DNA from: Prevotella sp. E15-22
GTDB lineage: Bacteria > Bacteroidota > Bacteroidia > Bacteroidales > Bacteroidaceae
NCBI RefSeq assembly: GCF_023204875.1
Contig: NZ_CP096247.1
Span: 1,240,001-1,304,000 of the forward strand
Length of the DNA: 64,000 nucleotides
Direction: 5' to 3'
The notes under the pieces are model-generated. The model searched no databases. It had not been told where the DNA came from and saw nothing but the letters and a program-made list of their open reading frames with translations. The position numbers and the translations under genes are program-made. Shown here in pieces: positions 45,849 through 59,335 of the stretch (the first letter of the stretch is position 1; each line of letters begins with the position of its first letter).

Positions 45849-45885
45849 TTTTTTCTCTTTTTGGTTAAATATTCATCTTTTTGTC

Positions 45886-45893
45886 TAATTTTG
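45886..45893 (+). promoter_or_regulatory. -7 box (TAATTTTG) of the WYL gene
   Basis: Plus-strand TAATTTTG 38 bp before the ATG at 45932. An in-frame ATG at 45881 would lie within or before the promoter, so the later start is used. Confidence 0.65.
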
Positions 45894-45931
45894 CCGCCGA
45901 TTTTATTAGACAAAGAGAAATAATAACAAAG

Positions 45932-46666
45932 ATGGCAAACACGAAACATTCTGTAGCTCGTGAGATCATCATCGACCGACTACTGCATAAAAGGCGCGGG
46001 TACTCCGTGTATGAGATACTAGATATAGTGAATGAATCTCTCAAATTTGAGGGGTATGGACCTGTTTCTTTAACTACCATACGTAGAGACTTGGACACTA
46101 TAAGGTATCGTTACAAACAAAAACTGGAAGCTCATAAGAAAAGCTTCAATGTTTATTTCCGTTATGAAGACCCGAATTTTACAATTTACAATAATGTATT
46201 GACTTTTGGAGAACTTCAGCATATTCAATCAGCACTACTGGCAATCCGCTTCAGCGATGAAATACAGGGTACATTGATGTATATGGAGCTTTCGAAGCGC
46301 CTCGCGGATATGTTTGATCTCGACCCAGCCAGCGACCCAATTGTACTTTACAAGAACATTCCTTCAAGTACAGACTGTAAGCGTTACCGTGCTCTTTATG
46401 AGTTTATCCGCACCAAGACGCCCATTTCCATCACCTACTATCCTAGTATTGACGAGAAACGGCGTGAGTCTACCATCCACCCTTATTTTATCTTGAAGGA
46501 TAACTCCAAATATTATCTTCTTGGCCATGACTCTGACAACGATACTTCCGTCAAAATTCCAATCTCAAACATCGTCCGCATGTGTGCAGCTGAAGGCGTC
46601 TCCTATATCCCCAACAAGGATTTCCCCCTGAAGGATTTCTACACCAAACACATTACCCATTATTAG
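45932..46666 (+). CDS. WYL-domain transcription regulator
   Basis: 244 residues: an N-terminal winged HTH (about 10-60, GYSVYEILDIVNESLKFEGY), a linking helix region, the WYL-like beta domain (about 150-215, with HPYFILKDNSKYYLLGHD, the conserved 'Y-L-L-G' core), and a C-terminal tail. Proteins of this type (BrxR, CapW) sit before phage-defence operons and repress them until a ligand, thought to be a nucleic acid fragment, binds. Operator-like copies lie both upstream and downstream of this gene. Confidence 0.88.
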   Translation: MANTKHSVAREIIIDRLLHKRRGYSVYEILDIVNESLKFEGYGPVSLTTIRRDLDTIRYRYKQKLEAHKKSFNVYFRYEDPNFTIYNNVLTFGELQHIQSALLAIRFSDEIQGTLMYMELSKRLADMFDLDPASDPIVLYKNIPSSTDCKRYRALYEFIRTKTPISITYYPSIDEKRRESTIHPYFILKDNSKYYLLGHDSDNDTSVKIPISNIVRMCAAEGVSYIPNKDFPLKDFYTKHITHY

Positions 46667-52563: not shown

Positions 52564-55500
52564 ATGGCAAAGAAACTTAAAAACATCAATGGTCACTTTG
52601 TAGAAAGCGACTATGAAAATGCACTCATTTCCTTTTTGGAAAATGAAAACTGGCAATACTTGTATGGGGATAATATTCCAAGAGCAAGTAGAAGAGAAGT
52701 TCTTTATATGGACGACCTCATTCATTTCTTAGAGAAAACGAATGAGGACTTAGAAGATGATGAGATTTGCCAGCTGGCAGAAAACATCAGGCTCATTGGT
52801 GCAGATACCGACTTTGCCACATTGCATAAAGTATATGGCTGGATGGTTAATGGTGTACAATATGTTTCCAAGAAAGGTGCGACAAAGACCATCAACTATA
52901 TCGACTTTAAAAATATAGAAAACAATATTTTTAGGGTTATCAATCAGTTTACTGTAGATTATATCAATAATGGCGAAGTGAAGAATAGGCGTCCTGACGT
53001 CCTCTTATATGTAAATGGATTACCCGTATGCATTATTGAACTAAAGAATCCTGCAGATGAAAAGGCCACCATTAATGACGCGTGGGAGCAAATAAACATA
53101 CGCTATTGGAGAGATATTCCAGAATTACTTCATTATTGCCCACTAGCATGCATTAGCGATGGTGTTAAGACACGTCTTGGTACAGTTCGAACTCCATACG
53201 AGCATTTCTATGCATGGCGAAGAGTCGAGAACGAAGATGAAATTTCGACCATGCCATTTGAAGAATTATCTACGATGGTTAAAGGTGTTTATCGCCCTGA
53301 CAGATTCCTTGAAATCTTTAGGGACTACATACTTTTCCAAGACGAGGAATTCGACTGCGACGAGAAAGAAATTGTTTGTCGATACCCACAATTCTTCGCA
53401 GCTCGTCTGTTACGAGAAAGCGTAGTCAAGTCAGTTAAAGAGCAGCAGGCTGGCAATGGCGACGGAAAAGGTGGTACATATTTTGGCGCTACTGGATGTG
53501 GTAAGACTTACACCATGGCATTTTTAGCTCGCCAGCTCTCTATGAGGTGTATGAATGATATTGGTTCGCCTACAATTTTAATGATTGTTGACCGTGACGA
53601 TCTTCAGAAACAGGGTGCAAAACTGTTTATGAAGAGTGAAGAGTTCCTAGGCTTAGGAGTTGTAGAGACTGTCCCCAGTAGAAAAAAACTTCGCGAAGAG
53701 CTCAAAGCTCGTGAAAGTGGAGGATTCTTTATTTGTACCATACAAAAATTCTGCGACAGAAAGGATGACCCCATCGGGCTTATTAACGAACGTTCTAATA
53801 TTATCTGTTTCAGTGACGAAGCTCATAGAACACAGATAGAAGGCTCTCGTCGTATAAAATTCAGCGATGATGACGACGAGAATATGAAGGCTTTGATATC
53901 CAAGCCTTATGCTACAGTACTACGTGAGGCATTTCCCCATGCTACATTCGTAGGATTTACAGGAACTCCTATTGAAGAGACATACCAGACATTCGGTAAG
54001 GAAATTGACCGATATACTATGGACCAGGCTGTAGCAGATGAAATTACTGTGCCAATAAAATACCATCCAAGAATAGCTAAGGTTCTTCTTGACCAAGAGA
54101 AAGCTAAAGAGATAGAAGCATATTATGCGAAATGTGCAGAAGAAGGTTCTACTAAGGAGGATATAGCAAAGAGCAAGAAAGCTATGAGTTCTCTAGAAGT
54201 AATACTTGGTGAATCCGACAGACTTGATAAATTGGCTGTGGACATACATGATCATTATGTAGCTGCTGTAGCTAATGACCCTGACAGAGTACAAAAGGCC
54301 ATGATTGTAAGTTCTAAAAGAGAAATAGCATATGCATTACTTTTGAAATTCAAGGATCGCTATCCAGAATGGTTCGAAGAAAGGAAGACTCCTGAAGGCG
54401 TTGAAGTACCAAAGGAAGAGCTCGATAAGATGGAGAAAGTTCCAATGCTTGCAATGGTTGCGAGTGTTGCTAGTAATGATGCAAAAGATATGTATGATTA
54501 TCTTGGTGGCGTTAAAAACGACAAGCGTACAGATAAATTTGATGCTGCTTTTAAACAGGTCCACTCAAATTTCCGTATCGCTCTTGTTGTAGACATGTGG
54601 ATTACAGGATTCGACGTCGACTGTCTGACATATATGTATAATGACAAACCGTTACAGAAGCATTCACTAATACAGACAATTAGCCGCGCAAATCGAAAAT
54701 TTCCTGGAAAGGAATATGGTTTAATAGTCGACTACATTGGAATCCGCGACCAAATGTTAGAGGCTAGGAAAATGTATGGAGGCGGTGGTTCTGTAGCTCC
54801 TACAGAAGACGACGTCGAACAAGCGACTGTTTTATTCCTGCAGCAGTTGGAAATTCTTAAATCGCTGTTTAAGGATTATGACCTTACACCTTTCTTGGAC
54901 GTTAAGACTGATCCAGCTAGGCGATACATTCTTCTTGCTAAGGCTGCAGAGTATGTTTTCTCTTCAAATGAGAAATTTAATCTGACTAGCAAAGACGGTA
55001 AGAAAACAAAGCCTGTATCATTCAAAACATATTTCCTGCAAAATGTCAAAAGAATGAGGAAAGCTTATGATATATGTCAGCCTTCAGGCGAGCTCCCTGA
55101 AGATGTATCTGCTCTTGCTCAATGCTTCATGGCGATTGCTGGTATGGTATATAAAATGAATGGTACCGACGCCCCCGATACAGACACAATGAACAGGCGT
55201 GTTGCAAAGATGGTGGAGGAAGCCTTAAAATACAACAAGGTCGAGAGCATCCTTGAAGAAGGTGAGGAAATGGACATCTTTGGTCCAGAATTTATCGAGC
55301 GTCTTTCAGACATAAAGATGCCAGCATCAAAACTTGAGATGCTGATAAAACTTCTTCGCCAGCAAATCACTGATTACGGTAGAACAAACCAAGTTGCATC
55401 TAAAAAGTTCCAAGAAATGCTGGAAGAAACCATCAAACAATATCATGAGCGCAGAAAATTCCTTTCTGAGGAAGAAGCTGGGGCTACACAGAATGAGACT

Positions 55501-55905
55501 TCGGATGATATCATTAAAGCAGCTACAGAACAGGCACTTCGGATATTGAAAGGGATGAAAGAGGATAGAGAAAGTTTCCGAAAGTTAGGATTAACATTTG
55601 AAGAAAAAGCATTCTACGATATTCTTATTCACCTTAGAGACAAGCACAATTTTGTTTATGGTGAGGATAAGACAATTGATGGTGTCGTAATCAACGAAAA
55701 ATGTAAGAGCTTGGCATGTAAAATACGTGAAATCATTGATGCAAAATCTTCATTTGCCGATTGGATTAATAACGAAAGAGTCCGTGAACAGCTTAAATTA
55801 GACATCAAGATATGTCTCGTTAAAAACGGCTATCCACCTCAGTACACTCCAGAGGTATTTAGAGATGTAATGGGACAAGTGGAGAATTTTAAAGAAAACG
55901 AATAG
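52564..55905 (+). CDS. hsdR: Type I restriction endonuclease subunit
   Basis: 1113 residues. Nuclease motif RRPDVLLY and IIELKNP (residues about 141-162; the D-x(n)-E-x-K type), motor P-loop FGATGCGKTYTM (about 304-315), SDEAHRTQ (about 417-424), and the helicase motif TGTPIEETYQ. The C-terminal part is helical and varied. It translocates DNA and cuts unmodified sites far from the target. 7 bp after hsdS. Confidence 0.96.
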   Translation: MAKKLKNINGHFVESDYENALISFLENENWQYLYGDNIPRASRREVLYMDDLIHFLEKTNEDLEDDEICQLAENIRLIGADTDFATLHKVYGWMVNGVQYVSKKGATKTINYIDFKNIENNIFRVINQFTVDYINNGEVKNRRPDVLLYVNGLPVCIIELKNPADEKATINDAWEQINIRYWRDIPELLHYCPLACISDGVKTRLGTVRTPYEHFYAWRRVENEDEISTMPFEELSTMVKGVYRPDRFLEIFRDYILFQDEEFDCDEKEIVCRYPQFFAARLLRESVVKSVKEQQAGNGDGKGGTYFGATGCGKTYTMAFLARQLSMRCMNDIGSPTILMIVDRDDLQKQGAKLFMKSEEFLGLGVVETVPSRKKLREELKARESGGFFICTIQKFCDRKDDPIGLINERSNIICFSDEAHRTQIEGSRRIKFSDDDDENMKALISKPYATVLREAFPHATFVGFTGTPIEETYQTFGKEIDRYTMDQAVADEITVPIKYHPRIAKVLLDQEKAKEIEAYYAKCAEEGSTKEDIAKSKKAMSSLEVILGESDRLDKLAVDIHDHYVAAVANDPDRVQKAMIVSSKREIAYALLLKFKDRYPEWFEERKTPEGVEVPKEELDKMEKVPMLAMVASVASNDAKDMYDYLGGVKNDKRTDKFDAAFKQVHSNFRIALVVDMWITGFDVDCLTYMYNDKPLQKHSLIQTISRANRKFPGKEYGLIVDYIGIRDQMLEARKMYGGGGSVAPTEDDVEQATVLFLQQLEILKSLFKDYDLTPFLDVKTDPARRYILLAKAAEYVFSSNEKFNLTSKDGKKTKPVSFKTYFLQNVKRMRKAYDICQPSGELPEDVSALAQCFMAIAGMVYKMNGTDAPDTDTMNRRVAKMVEEALKYNKVESILEEGEEMDIFGPEFIERLSDIKMPASKLEMLIKLLRQQITDYGRTNQVASKKFQEMLEETIKQYHERRKFLSEEEAGATQNETSDDIIKAATEQALRILKGMKEDRESFRKLGLTFEEKAFYDILIHLRDKHNFVYGEDKTIDGVVINEKCKSLACKIREIIDAKSSFADWINNERVREQLKLDIKICLVKNGYPPQYTPEVFRDVMGQVENFKENE

Positions 55906-55912
55906 AAATAGT

Positions 55913-56698
55913 ATGTTAGGAGCAATCATTGGAGATATCGTAGGTAGCCGATGGGAATTCAATCCCACGAATGACTACAATTTCGAATGGCTGTCCGAAG
56001 AAAACGGCTTCACCGACGATACTATATGTACTGTCGGTGTAGCCGATGCTTTATTAAATGACCGCGACTTCGGCGAGAGCATCCACAACTGGTGCCGTCG
56101 TTATCCACATCCTAAAGGTGGATATGGTGGACGTTTTGCTCAATGGGTACAAATCGACAATCCTCAGCCATACAACAGTTTTGGAAACGGCTCAGCCATG
56201 CGAGTCTCTCCAGTAGCTTATTGTTATAACAATATCGACGAGGTGCTTGATGCCGCTGCAGCCACAGCCCTCCCCTCTCATAATCATGATGAAGGTATAA
56301 AAGGGGCTCAGACCGTGGCACTTGCAATTTTCAGAGCTCTTCAGTTTGGCGAACAAGCACCAGATCACATTGCCGAAATTCTTAAAGAGTGTGTCCAGTT
56401 CTCTGACTATGATATCAACATCAATAAAGCCGAGGTTATCAATCGGTTCGATGAAACTTGCCAGGGCACAGTACCGGTAGCACTATGGATTATCGGCATC
56501 AGCGATGGCTTTGAGGATGCAGTTCGTAAGGCTGTAAGCCTCGGTGCAGACGCCGACACATTGGGCGCCATCGTTGGCAGTATCGCTGAAGCAATCTGGG
56601 GAATACCCGAGGAAATGAAGAAAGAAATAATGAGCTTCTTATCAAATGAAATGAAGCAGGTAATAAGTGAGTTCTATGAACATATAAGCAGAATATAG
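55913..56698 (+). CDS. ADP-ribosylglycohydrolase (DraG family)
   Basis: 261 residues. TDDT (34-37) is the first metal-binding motif and GADADT (about 216-221) the last, both coordinating the two Mg ions of DraG/ARH hydrolases. It removes ADP-ribose from proteins or nucleic acids. It starts 7 bp after the hsdR stop and is followed after 2 bp by a Nudix gene, so all five genes hsdM to Nudix form one tight transcript. The substrate is not shown. Confidence 0.9.
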   Translation: MLGAIIGDIVGSRWEFNPTNDYNFEWLSEENGFTDDTICTVGVADALLNDRDFGESIHNWCRRYPHPKGGYGGRFAQWVQIDNPQPYNSFGNGSAMRVSPVAYCYNNIDEVLDAAAATALPSHNHDEGIKGAQTVALAIFRALQFGEQAPDHIAEILKECVQFSDYDININKAEVINRFDETCQGTVPVALWIIGISDGFEDAVRKAVSLGADADTLGAIVGSIAEAIWGIPEEMKKEIMSFLSNEMKQVISEFYEHISRI

Positions 56699-56700
56699 AA

Positions 56701-57165
56701 ATGAAATACAGCTACAAATACCCTCGACCTGCAGTTACAGCTGATTGCGTAGTGATTACAAATGAACCACTCCCGAAGGTTCTGCTCATTCAGAGAGGTG
56801 CAGAACCTTTCAAAGGTTCATGGGCATTCCCTGGCGGATTTATGAACATGGATGAGTCCACGGAAGAATGCGCCATTCGTGAGCTGGAGGAAGAGACGGG
56901 GCTGAAAGTGACCACCGTTCATCAGATTGGAGCATACTCTAAAGTTGACCGTGATCCGCGAGGTCGTACAATCACCGTGGCATACCTCGCCATCATCGAC
57001 TCCCCTCAGGAGGTTCGAGGTCAGGACGATGCTGCTAAGGCTGAGTGGTTCCCGATTACAGAATTACCGCAACTCTCATTTGACCACTTTGATATCCTGC
57101 AAGATGCAACAAGAATTTATGGACATAATCTAAATGAGGACTTCAAAATGCAAAAAAAAACTTGA
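56701..57165 (+). CDS. Nudix hydrolase
   Basis: 154 residues with a perfect Nudix box starting at Gly46 (GX5EX7REUXEEXGU: E52, R60, E61, E64, E65, G67). The form and the preceding ADP-ribose hydrolase suggest ADP-ribose pyrophosphatase activity (to AMP and ribose-5-phosphate), but 8-oxo-dGTP or other substrates are possible. Last gene of the operon; the end overlaps a hairpin terminator. Confidence 0.9.
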   Translation: MKYSYKYPRPAVTADCVVITNEPLPKVLLIQRGAEPFKGSWAFPGGFMNMDESTEECAIRELEEETGLKVTTVHQIGAYSKVDRDPRGRTITVAYLAIIDSPQEVRGQDDAAKAEWFPITELPQLSFDHFDILQDATRIYGHNLNEDFKMQKKT

Positions 57166-57514: not shown

Positions 57515-58153
57515 TCAGTCTTCCCTAAAGAAATCTCCCTTACCCATCACCGTACCTTCGGCTACGCAACAGTTGTAGCGTTCTCGGCTCCGGCGTTCAC
57601 GGGCGAACATCTCCTTGGTACCTTTCTCATCCTGAGTAAAATCCATATGTTCCTCGATGGCAAACGACTGGGCCATCTCCTCCACATCAAGATTTTCAGT
57701 TCCAATCAGCGTGAAAGTCCAGTTCTGTTTCTTCAGCTTCTCGATAAGGGTACGTACCATCTTCAGCGACCATTCCTCTGAACAGTTCTCGTAACCGTCT
57801 GTTATGATGGTCACAAGGACATGATCGCCATCTTCTACTTGGGCGTTAACCTTTGAGATTCCCTTTCCGATAGCATCGTAAAGCGGAGTGGCAGCACAAG
57901 GATGGTACGCTTTCCACTTCAAATCCGATGTTTTGTCTGCAAGCGTATTGTCATAGTGCAGTTTGGTGTGGTCGCTGTCAAAGGTTATCAGCGTTACGTA
58001 CTGAATCTGGTTGGGGTACTTCTTCTGCATCATGCGGACAGTCTGCAGGGTTTCATTCATACCTGTGAAGGCCTGTTTGCGGATACGCTCCATTGAACCG
58101 CTTTCGTCTACAATAATCAAGTTGTGAACTCTTGTTGGAATTAAATCTGTCAT
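57515..58153 (-). CDS. VWA-domain protein (MIDAS)
   Basis: 212 residues, essentially one von Willebrand A domain. The metal-ion-dependent adhesion site reads DESGS (residues 16-20), with the Thr in AATPLYDA and the Asp in TIITDGYEN. Such small soluble VWA proteins act in TerY-type stress modules and with ATPases. It is divergent from the sigma/macrodomain fusion (124 bp apart), suggesting a functional pair. Confidence 0.88.
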   Translation of the reverse strand: MTDLIPTRVHNLIIVDESGSMERIRKQAFTGMNETLQTVRMMQKKYPNQIQYVTLITFDSDHTKLHYDNTLADKTSDLKWKAYHPCAATPLYDAIGKGISKVNAQVEDGDHVLVTIITDGYENCSEEWSLKMVRTLIEKLKKQNWTFTLIGTENLDVEEMAQSFAIEEHMDFTQDEKGTKEMFARERRSRERYNCCVAEGTVMGKGDFFRED

Positions 58154-58251
58154 AGTTGTAAATTTTAAAGGGTGAATACTATTTTCAACATGTCTTTATC
58201 ACTTTAAAGAAGATTTTCGAAAAAAATTAAGTAGTATCACGATTTTTTTCG

Positions 58252-58259
58252 TATATTCG
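58252..58259 (+). promoter_or_regulatory. Variant -7 box (TATATTCG) of the sigma/macrodomain gene
   Basis: Plus-strand TATATTCG, one change from TAnnTTTG, 17 bp before the ATG at 58277. Confidence 0.45.
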
Positions 58260-58276
58260 CCCCATAAAACAATAAT

Positions 58277-59335
58277 ATGACCTATAGACGACTATCTGAC
58301 AAGGAGATTCTAAGGGGCTTCCGCCAGGGCGACGCCGACATTATCCGTACTTATTTCTACGGATATTGTGAGGTCGGCTATTATATTTTCGACCAGCGGT
58401 ATCAGCTTCATGAGAAAGAGAACCTGGACTTCCTCTCACTCGCCCATCAGTATGCCATATTCCTGATGGAACATGATTGGAAGCCACTGGAGGACCATTC
58501 CCCAAACGTTTCCCTAAAGACCTGGCTTATCAACGGCTTTCGTTTCATAGTCCTCGATGCTCTGAAATGGTACCGCAAGGAATACGGCAGCATTACTTTT
58601 GAGGACTATCTCCAGTCATTCGATGTCTCGAGTAATCTCCGTCTGCAGTTTAATCATATGGTTGAAGATGTCTGCGACCATGTTCCTATGGGACGTCAGG
58701 AACGCCTTATCATAGATATGATTCTCCTGCAGGGCTTCAAATCTAAGGATGTTGCCGCCCAGATGGGAATGACTCCTGCAGCCATATCACAGAAATACAA
58801 GAAAATCAAGGAAGACATCATCGTACCGTATTTCCGTCAAAACTTTGATATGGACTTTGACATGCCTGAAATTATGCCGGACTTCGGCATAGTTGGCGAA
58901 CCTATGCTGGAAGAGGCAGCACCTTGTGCCGCACCTATGGATTTCATGAAAAGAAGAACTATGGAAGAAAAGCGTACTACTCCGGAGCATATTACATCGC
59001 TCCAGCCAAACGAGATTTTCGTCTTCGGATCGAACCTTCGCGGAATGCATGGCGGAGGTGCAGCATATGTTGCATATCGCCACTTCGGTGCCATCATGGG
59101 CCAAGGTGTCGGTCTGCAGGGACAGAGCTATGCCATCCCCACCATGCAGGGTGGCGTAGACACAATCCGTCCCTATGTGGTCGAGTTCATCGAATTTGCC
59201 AAGCAGCACCAGAACTTGACGTTCCTCGTCACCCGCATCGGTTGCGGCATCGCCGGCTTTACCGATGAAGAAATCTCTCCACTCTTCGAAGCTGCGCACG
59301 ATGTGAAGAACATCGTATTACCACCGAATTGGTAA
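58277..59335 (+). CDS. Sigma-70-like factor fused to a macrodomain-like (A1S_2505-type) domain
   Basis: 352 residues. Residues about 1-185 resemble an ECF-type sigma factor: region 2-like helices (NVSLKTWLINGFRFIVLDAL) and a region 4 HTH (GFKSKDVAAQMGMTPAAISQ at about 155-174). After a linker (about 190-235) a domain starts EIFVFGSNLRGMHGGGAAYV and includes GQGVGLQGQSYAIPT and VTRIGCGIAGF, the A1S_2505-like macrodomain-fold type, a likely binder of ADP-ribose-like ligands. The fusion suggests a sigma factor controlled by an ADP-ribose-type ligand. Proximity of DraG and Nudix genes is suggestive. Confidence 0.8.
   Translation: MTYRRLSDKEILRGFRQGDADIIRTYFYGYCEVGYYIFDQRYQLHEKENLDFLSLAHQYAIFLMEHDWKPLEDHSPNVSLKTWLINGFRFIVLDALKWYRKEYGSITFEDYLQSFDVSSNLRLQFNHMVEDVCDHVPMGRQERLIIDMILLQGFKSKDVAAQMGMTPAAISQKYKKIKEDIIVPYFRQNFDMDFDMPEIMPDFGIVGEPMLEEAAPCAAPMDFMKRRTMEEKRTTPEHITSLQPNEIFVFGSNLRGMHGGGAAYVAYRHFGAIMGQGVGLQGQSYAIPTMQGGVDTIRPYVVEFIEFAKQHQNLTFLVTRIGCGIAGFTDEEISPLFEAAHDVKNIVLPPNW

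Follow-up and report, generated by a model that had tools for sequence, protein, structure and literature searches.

A sigma factor-like protein fused to an A1S_2505-type macrodomain and its divergent VWA partner in Prevotella

Results

A sigma-like chain that ends in a macrodomain

Could a transcription initiation factor carry its own pocket for an ADP-ribose-type ligand? This question is raised by a locus of Prevotella sp. E15-22 (contig NZ_CP096247.1, positions 1,240,001 to 1,304,000; this stretch of 64,000 nucleotides is the window hereafter), in which a 352-residue protein, here called sigma-macro, is encoded divergently from a small VWA protein. Control of sigma factors is commonly exerted by anti-sigma proteins, some extracytoplasmic function (ECF) sigma factors have C-terminal extensions, and macrodomains usually bind ADP-ribose. 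A first-pass annotation, made from the letters alone, had described sigma regions 2 and 4 followed in one chain by an A1S_2505-like macrodomain, and our family searches and structure model confirmed this arrangement at the positions given in Table 1: an ECF-type region 2 and a region 4, then a linker modelled as disordered, then the A1S_2505-type macrodomain. The structure prediction that the annotation had proposed returned both sigma region folds, ordered as in ECF sigma factors, and the macrodomain fold. By structure comparison the region 2 part matches the domain of sigmaE that binds the -10 element; by eye in the alignment, it is the best conserved part of the N-terminal half. Family model and fold agree that the N-terminus is sigma-like, with reservations: the window protein scored 31.7 bits against the curated ECF sigma family model, under the cut-off of 42.9, and the N-terminus also weakly matches many helix-turn-helix (HTH) families, with profile matches to MarR-type regulators. 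From sequence and modelled fold, we consider the macrodomain assignment firm and the sigma assignment good. Sigma-macro is like the ECF-type sigma-70 factors (TIGR02937) in having region 2 and region 4 in that order plus an extra C-terminal domain; it differs in having a macrodomain as that extension and a VWA gene as its partner. PADLOC reported nothing for sigma-macro or the VWA protein.

Table 1. Positions of the features in the window.
Feature	Position	Strand	Basis
VWA protein, 212 aa, MIDAS motif, divergent from sigma-macro	57515..58153	-	Open reading frame; Pfam VWA above cut-off
Sigma-macro protein, 352 aa	58277..59335	+	Open reading frame; family matches; structure model
Sigma region 2-like part, about residues 8-105	58298..58591	+	
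Sigma region 4-like helix-turn-helix, about residues 121-189	58637..58843	+	
Variable linker, about residues 191-234, pLDDT <50, containing internal Met 229	58847..58978	+	
A1S_2505-type macrodomain, about residues 235-352	58979..59332	+	
Conserved 40-bp element between the two genes	58194..58233	.	Alignment without indels; one strong site per genome
Palindrome CTTTAAAG in the element	58202-58209		
TTAAG in the element	58227-58231		
TATATTCG, -7-box-like, 20 bp past TTAAG	58252..58259	+	TAnnTTTG-like alignment columns
DraG-type ADP-ribosylglycohydrolase, accessory	55913..56698	+	
Nudix hydrolase, accessory	56701..57165	+	
Phage-like and type I restriction genes around the pair	29871-62084		

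A protein search returned 6799 relatives, 120 of them listed, and a contig scan retained 80 of 144 loci (loci carry L numbers below). The full fusion was called as one open reading frame (ORF) at 54 of the retained loci in addition to the window and, by these comparisons, is a family. Matches to the sigma-macro protein occurred in 43 of the 80 genus genomes; 125 of the 251 family genomes matched some part of it, mostly the macrodomain alone among the matches listed. The sigma profile was also run over 393 order-level genomes, a set with few family members; it gave a strong match only in the window's own genome, and five weak matches elsewhere (<40 bits) were presumed to be ordinary ECF factors. 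With the whole protein as query, tblastn matched 407 phage records and 32 plasmid records, again mostly through the macrodomain alone among the matches listed; the match extends over the sigma part in one phage-collection record (H1), and plasmid pE2-28 carries the whole fusion. One relative is titled 'prophage PRU01 transcriptional regulator', and a second place in the window's own genome (L002:1501-1620) retains just the last 40 macrodomain residues (78% identical), probably a remnant.

Where the macrodomain starts, 49 of 55 rows retain Met 229 (window position 58961) despite the variable linker before it, and the pE2-28 record annotates just a 124-residue part of the fusion, from the internal Met onward. 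An internal start at this position could yield the macrodomain alone.

The macrodomain pocket

The window macrodomain scored 146.1 bits against the curated A1S_2505 model (NF049995; cut-off 45), which all 46 of the 46 sigma-macro members searched matched at E ≤ 1 × 10−3. The A1S_2505 family (NF049995; phrog_2072) corresponds to the whole C-terminal domain; elsewhere it often stands alone or is joined to other parts, and here it is fused to a sigma factor. The macrodomain has a TARG1/DarG/SCO6735-type fold with ADP-ribose loops, according to the structure model and pocket alignment. Its best Foldseek matches were Bt_1257 (E 0.0065) and SCO6735 (E 0.021), with no match at E ≤ 0.001 for the queried models. 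A sequence search against the PDB yielded one weak entry (5e3b, E 0.8), so the class assignment rests on folds. Pfam Macro (PF01661) gave no match in the window protein at E ≤ 1 and none in its genome at E ≤ 0.001. According to the accessible passages of PMC6978653, A1S_2505 was modelled on C6orf130 and its mutant had an unchanged colistin minimum inhibitory concentration. A macrodomain of this type also lies in Pseudomonas phage PA5oct (L119, 1498-1872), annotated as a hypothetical, N4 gp14-like protein.

Did this domain keep its pocket? Across an alignment of 87 main-family rows, with duplicates and cut contigs counted, the columns GSN, GxHxGGGAA, IPTMQGG and IGCGIAGF are nearly invariant, so that the loss of the ligand pocket considered in the first-pass annotation is not what the main family displays. 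Gly251, Ser252, Asn253, His258, Gly261, Pro288, Thr289, Met290, Gln291, Gly322, Cys323, Gly324, Ala326 and Gly327 do not vary at all. By the DarG motif as we presume it to be, the catalytic lysine falls on Met290, the neighbour of Gln291; Ala326 occupies the place of the TARG1 aspartate as aligned here. No main-family row has a lysine at 290-291 (0/87) and all have alanine at 326 (87/87); the TARG1 Lys84/Asp125 pair therefore appears to be absent, with column equivalence taken in part from the presumed DarG motif. The portions of PMC9411070 consulted assign catalysis to Lys84/Asp125 in TARG1 and to Lys80 in DarG; for SCO6735, which is without this Lys and Asp, they name Gln85, Asn27 and the Val25 backbone, Asn27 and Gln85 being needed.

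Outside the main family the pocket is less uniform. Lysine stands at 290 in 3 of 37 viral rows; by eye, a second sigma-macro subfamily has Asp for Asn253 and Ile-Val at 290-291, and the IGCGIAG loop is altered in L203. Given the main-family invariance and the second-subfamily changes, main-family domains likely still bind a ligand and are unlikely to use TARG1 chemistry; an SCO6735-like activity could exist among them but would not be general. The sigma-macro domain has the fold and ADP-ribose-binding loops in common with TARG1, DarG and SCO6735; it has no visible Lys/Asp pair, is missed by Pfam Macro and, unlike them, is fused to a sigma part. A near-invariant main-family pocket, apparently without the TARG1 catalytic lysine, favours sensing over hydrolysis.

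A near-constant VWA partner

The survey of VWA genes beside such fusions, also proposed in the first-pass annotation, found the partner conserved. ORF calls placed a VWA gene in 46 of the 55 full-fusion loci; in 45 of these it is divergent within 600 bp, and 43 of the 45 sit 81-201 bp from sigma-macro. Antisense ORFs had masked VWA in several loci of this first neighbour scan, and a tblastn search of 111 loci (some genomes counted twice) corrects for them: VWA lies somewhere in 69 of the 77 loci that hold both sigma and macro parts. Of the eight others, four are contigs cut on the VWA side (L056, L067, L075, L077), and L017 has a different divergent ORF with a DTTGS motif and no NCBIfam match; no VWA was seen at L013 and L016 (1.5-kb flank) or L043 (10-kb flank). 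Among 63 macro-only loci, many with short flanks, one had VWA. The metal ion-dependent adhesion site (MIDAS) residues (DxSxS, T, D) of the VWA protein are unvarying in a 59-row alignment at the 98% mark.

Distances across 53 loci correlated at 0.82 for VWA and sigma, 0.71 for VWA and macro and 0.78 for sigma and macro, and none of 2000 permutations was as high for either VWA comparison; shared ancestry alone can give rise to such correlations. No ORF cluster other than VWA occurred in more than 9 of the 55 loci, no search being aimed at MoxR itself. Judged by gene content, VWA appears to be the one near-constant neighbour of sigma-macro, and the link is strong; the core unit is VWA plus sigma-macro. 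The MoxR-vWA ternary systems, as far as PMC7159879 was accessible, likewise link a VWA with MIDAS to NAD/ADP-ribose domains, with Macro and Nudix among the vWA-associated effectors, unlike the present loci in that here no third gene is a constant neighbour. The consulted part of PMC9503650 describes vWA as a peptide-binding chaperone near ADP-ribosylglycohydrolase (ARG) systems, and 'sigma' occurs nowhere in its main text.

The VWA and macro parts also meet in one chain. Among 17 fetched regions of interest, BLASTP against the window parts identified VWA-macro proteins in L203, L208 and L210 and the reverse order, macro-VWA, in L197. The chains of L197, L203 and L210 had no Pfam match at E ≤ 1 × 10−3, so their VWA part is assigned by BLASTP to the window VWA (37-44% identical). 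A search with the L210 protein, its match list ordered by E value, gave matches spanning VWA and macro for at least 15 of 251 genomes, counting that of L210 itself. The second subfamily (L195, L196; sigma part 37% and macro part 57-58% identical) has a divergent VWA gene (55-61% identical) 92 bp away in both fetched loci. Pfam further identified macrodomain chains with DUF1810 (L199, L211) or NADAR (L209) among three that were scanned. A macrodomain of the sigma-macro type lies inside longer chains in L198-L201, L204-L206, L209 and L211, and at G242:C85:6380-7534 macrodomain and VWA matches adjoin in two frames or genes, without sigma.

A dedicated intergenic element

We aligned 43 intergenic regions between the two genes. 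A 40-bp element was free of indels among 41 chosen sequences; L073, L084, L088, L089 and L093 were left out as weaker, the longer block scoring 11.8-30.1 bits there. We then searched 13 of the 18 fusion genomes with the element profile (150 candidates scored per genome; some of these genomes had fed the profile). All 13 had one strong site, always at the sigma-macro locus (29.1-50.6 bits), and no second strong site was found in them, the best remaining candidate scoring 17.8 bits (E 0.014). A wider regulon was considered and set aside, as none could be named from this search, in which weak sites remain possible. The element persists in genome G010, although its locus L013 is without VWA, and its core AAAATTAAGCAG is visible by eye in the second-subfamily loci L195 and L196, although the profile scores them weakly (11.3 and 4.3 bits). 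Two macro-only loci (L099:1723-2206 and L109:2264-2738) keep the element and have lost the sigma part; we rejected them as regulon members and regard them as deletion derivatives with the promoter kept.

Ahead of sigma-macro, TTAAG and, 20 bp on, a TAnnTTTG-like box fit a primary-sigma promoter; TATATTCG resembles what we take to be the -7 box consensus of Bacteroidetes primary-sigma promoters. Given such a promoter, the palindrome upstream would be an operator.

Genomic setting and ADP-ribose neighbours

Around the pair lie VapE-like, ArdA, head maturation protease and terminase-like genes and the type I restriction genes HsdM, HsdS and HsdR; DraG begins 7 bp past HsdR and is followed by Nudix (52564-57165), operon-like. 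All six viral-collection loci with the full fusion resemble the window DNA downstream of it, which suggests that the pair is phage-like cargo in this clade. Most other loci had none of four L156 genes (a portal-like gene and the three preceding it), so the phage-like setting is not general.

The first-pass annotation had placed the pair in an ADP-ribose signalling set with DraG and Nudix. Neighbours were surveyed at 66 long-match loci, or 64 without L154 and L155 (copies of L032 and L033), with flanks from none to 12 kb and, in the window, 58 kb on one side. DraG was near 10 of the 64 (one at 41% identity) and Nudix (≥55% identity) near 12, the window included in both counts; Sir2 was near 3. 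The order is DraG-Sir2-Nudix-VWA-sigma-macro in L158 and Sir2-Nudix-VWA-sigma-macro on pE2-28, and in L077 DraG, Sir2 and Nudix all lie downstream. As a rough control, 56 loci without a long match had DraG near one (L110, on a contig shared with L044) and Nudix near two. DraG was present at E ≤ 1 × 10−20 in 9 of the 18 fusion genomes, and the window's genome was the only one in which it shared a contig with the fusion and lay near it; most of these genomes are drafts, in which linkage across contigs stays possible. The survey supports recurrent neighbours and does not support a fixed set: judged from gene order, the association appears recurrent, neither required nor fixed. Since it recurs, sometimes with Sir2, an ADP-ribose link of the pair is plausible. 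The ARG-centred counter-ADPr systems in the consulted part of PMC9503650 have a linked ARG/DraG core, unlike sigma-macro with DraG near 10 of 64 loci of unequal flanks. The Nudix-HTH and WYL regulators described there are analogous in joining a DNA-binding part to a sensor of an ADP-ribose-type ligand; unlike in them, a macrodomain would be the sensor here and a sigma-like part would bind DNA.

Discussion

The fusion, its pocket motifs, the near-constant VWA partner, the VWA-macro chains and the dedicated cis-element are computed observations; the mechanism that we build on them is a proposal. The best explanation, which we hold tentatively and at somewhat less than even odds, is a self-regulated sigma switch gated by an ADP-ribose-type ligand, with VWA as partner. 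The sigma part would recognize a promoter and recruit RNA polymerase. The macrodomain may act as a reader, binding free ADP-ribose, O-acetyl-ADP-ribose or an ADP-ribosylated group, and its occupancy would set whether the sigma part is active. VWA, as a putative metal-dependent peptide binder, may contact sigma-macro and hold or release it as an anti-sigma factor or co-chaperone, and through the shared intergenic element, by whichever protein binds it, the pair would control its own expression. Only a shade more guardedly, we suggest that an ADP-ribose-class ligand directly gates a transcription initiation factor whose partner is a VWA protein, within a wider modular code of these bacteria in which one phage-type macrodomain is set on sigma, VWA, DUF1810 or NADAR parts.

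The closest competitor, to which we give about one chance in four, is that the N-terminus is no longer a sigma factor and that the protein is an HTH autoregulator on its own operator, its binding tuned by the macrodomain. One strong element per genome with a palindromic core, the MarR-type profile matches and the many weak HTH matches all accord with it, but a plain HTH protein would have no need of a region 2 part that is best conserved by eye and matches the sigmaE domain for -10 binding. It is unlikely, in our judgement, that the sigma part instead takes an active SCO6735-like ADP-ribosylhydrolase to RNA polymerase or DNA, for example to clear ADP-ribose marks left by a phage or toxin. The top Foldseek matches and the resemblance of main-family-invariant Asn253 and Gln291 to SCO6735 Asn27 and Gln85 (in the accessible part of PMC9411070) speak for such an enzyme. 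Against it, Met290 and not Gln291 falls on the catalytic place when the IPT strand is the anchor and the DarG motif is as presumed, and Asn253 and Gln291 are, by eye, not kept in the second subfamily; three viral rows do have a lysine at the Met290 place.

Slightly less probable again is that the pair is mobile-element cargo that controls lysogeny or defence, with no regulatory role for ADP-ribose and with DraG and Nudix as hitch-hikers. The six viral-collection loci, pE2-28, the head protease and terminase-like genes, and the failure to find DraG and Nudix near most loci would suit this; it sits poorly with a pocket nearly invariant in the main family, with VWA-macro chains that exist without sigma, and with DraG, Nudix and Sir2 recurring in varied orders and settings.

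Should the ligand-gated switch be correct, a sigma factor equipped with such a pocket would link promoter choice straight to NAD metabolism or to attack based on ADP-ribose. The fusion and its near-constant partner suggest that a NAD-derived signal could reach the transcription machinery directly. In the literature searched (titles, starts of abstracts and passages, with subscription journals largely outside), we found no description of the fusion or its VWA pair, and the fusion is not described in the parts of PMC7824862 and PMC8195603 consulted. Phage records frequently contain the A1S_2505 macrodomain, annotated as hypothetical in those inspected, and its near-constant link to VWA, sometimes in one chain, offers a testable handle on the function of both.

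Additional observations

At G082:C1:321692-323303, a macrodomain match is followed closely by a DraG match on the same strand. In the window, a WYL-domain protein is encoded at 45881-46666, upstream of the restriction genes.
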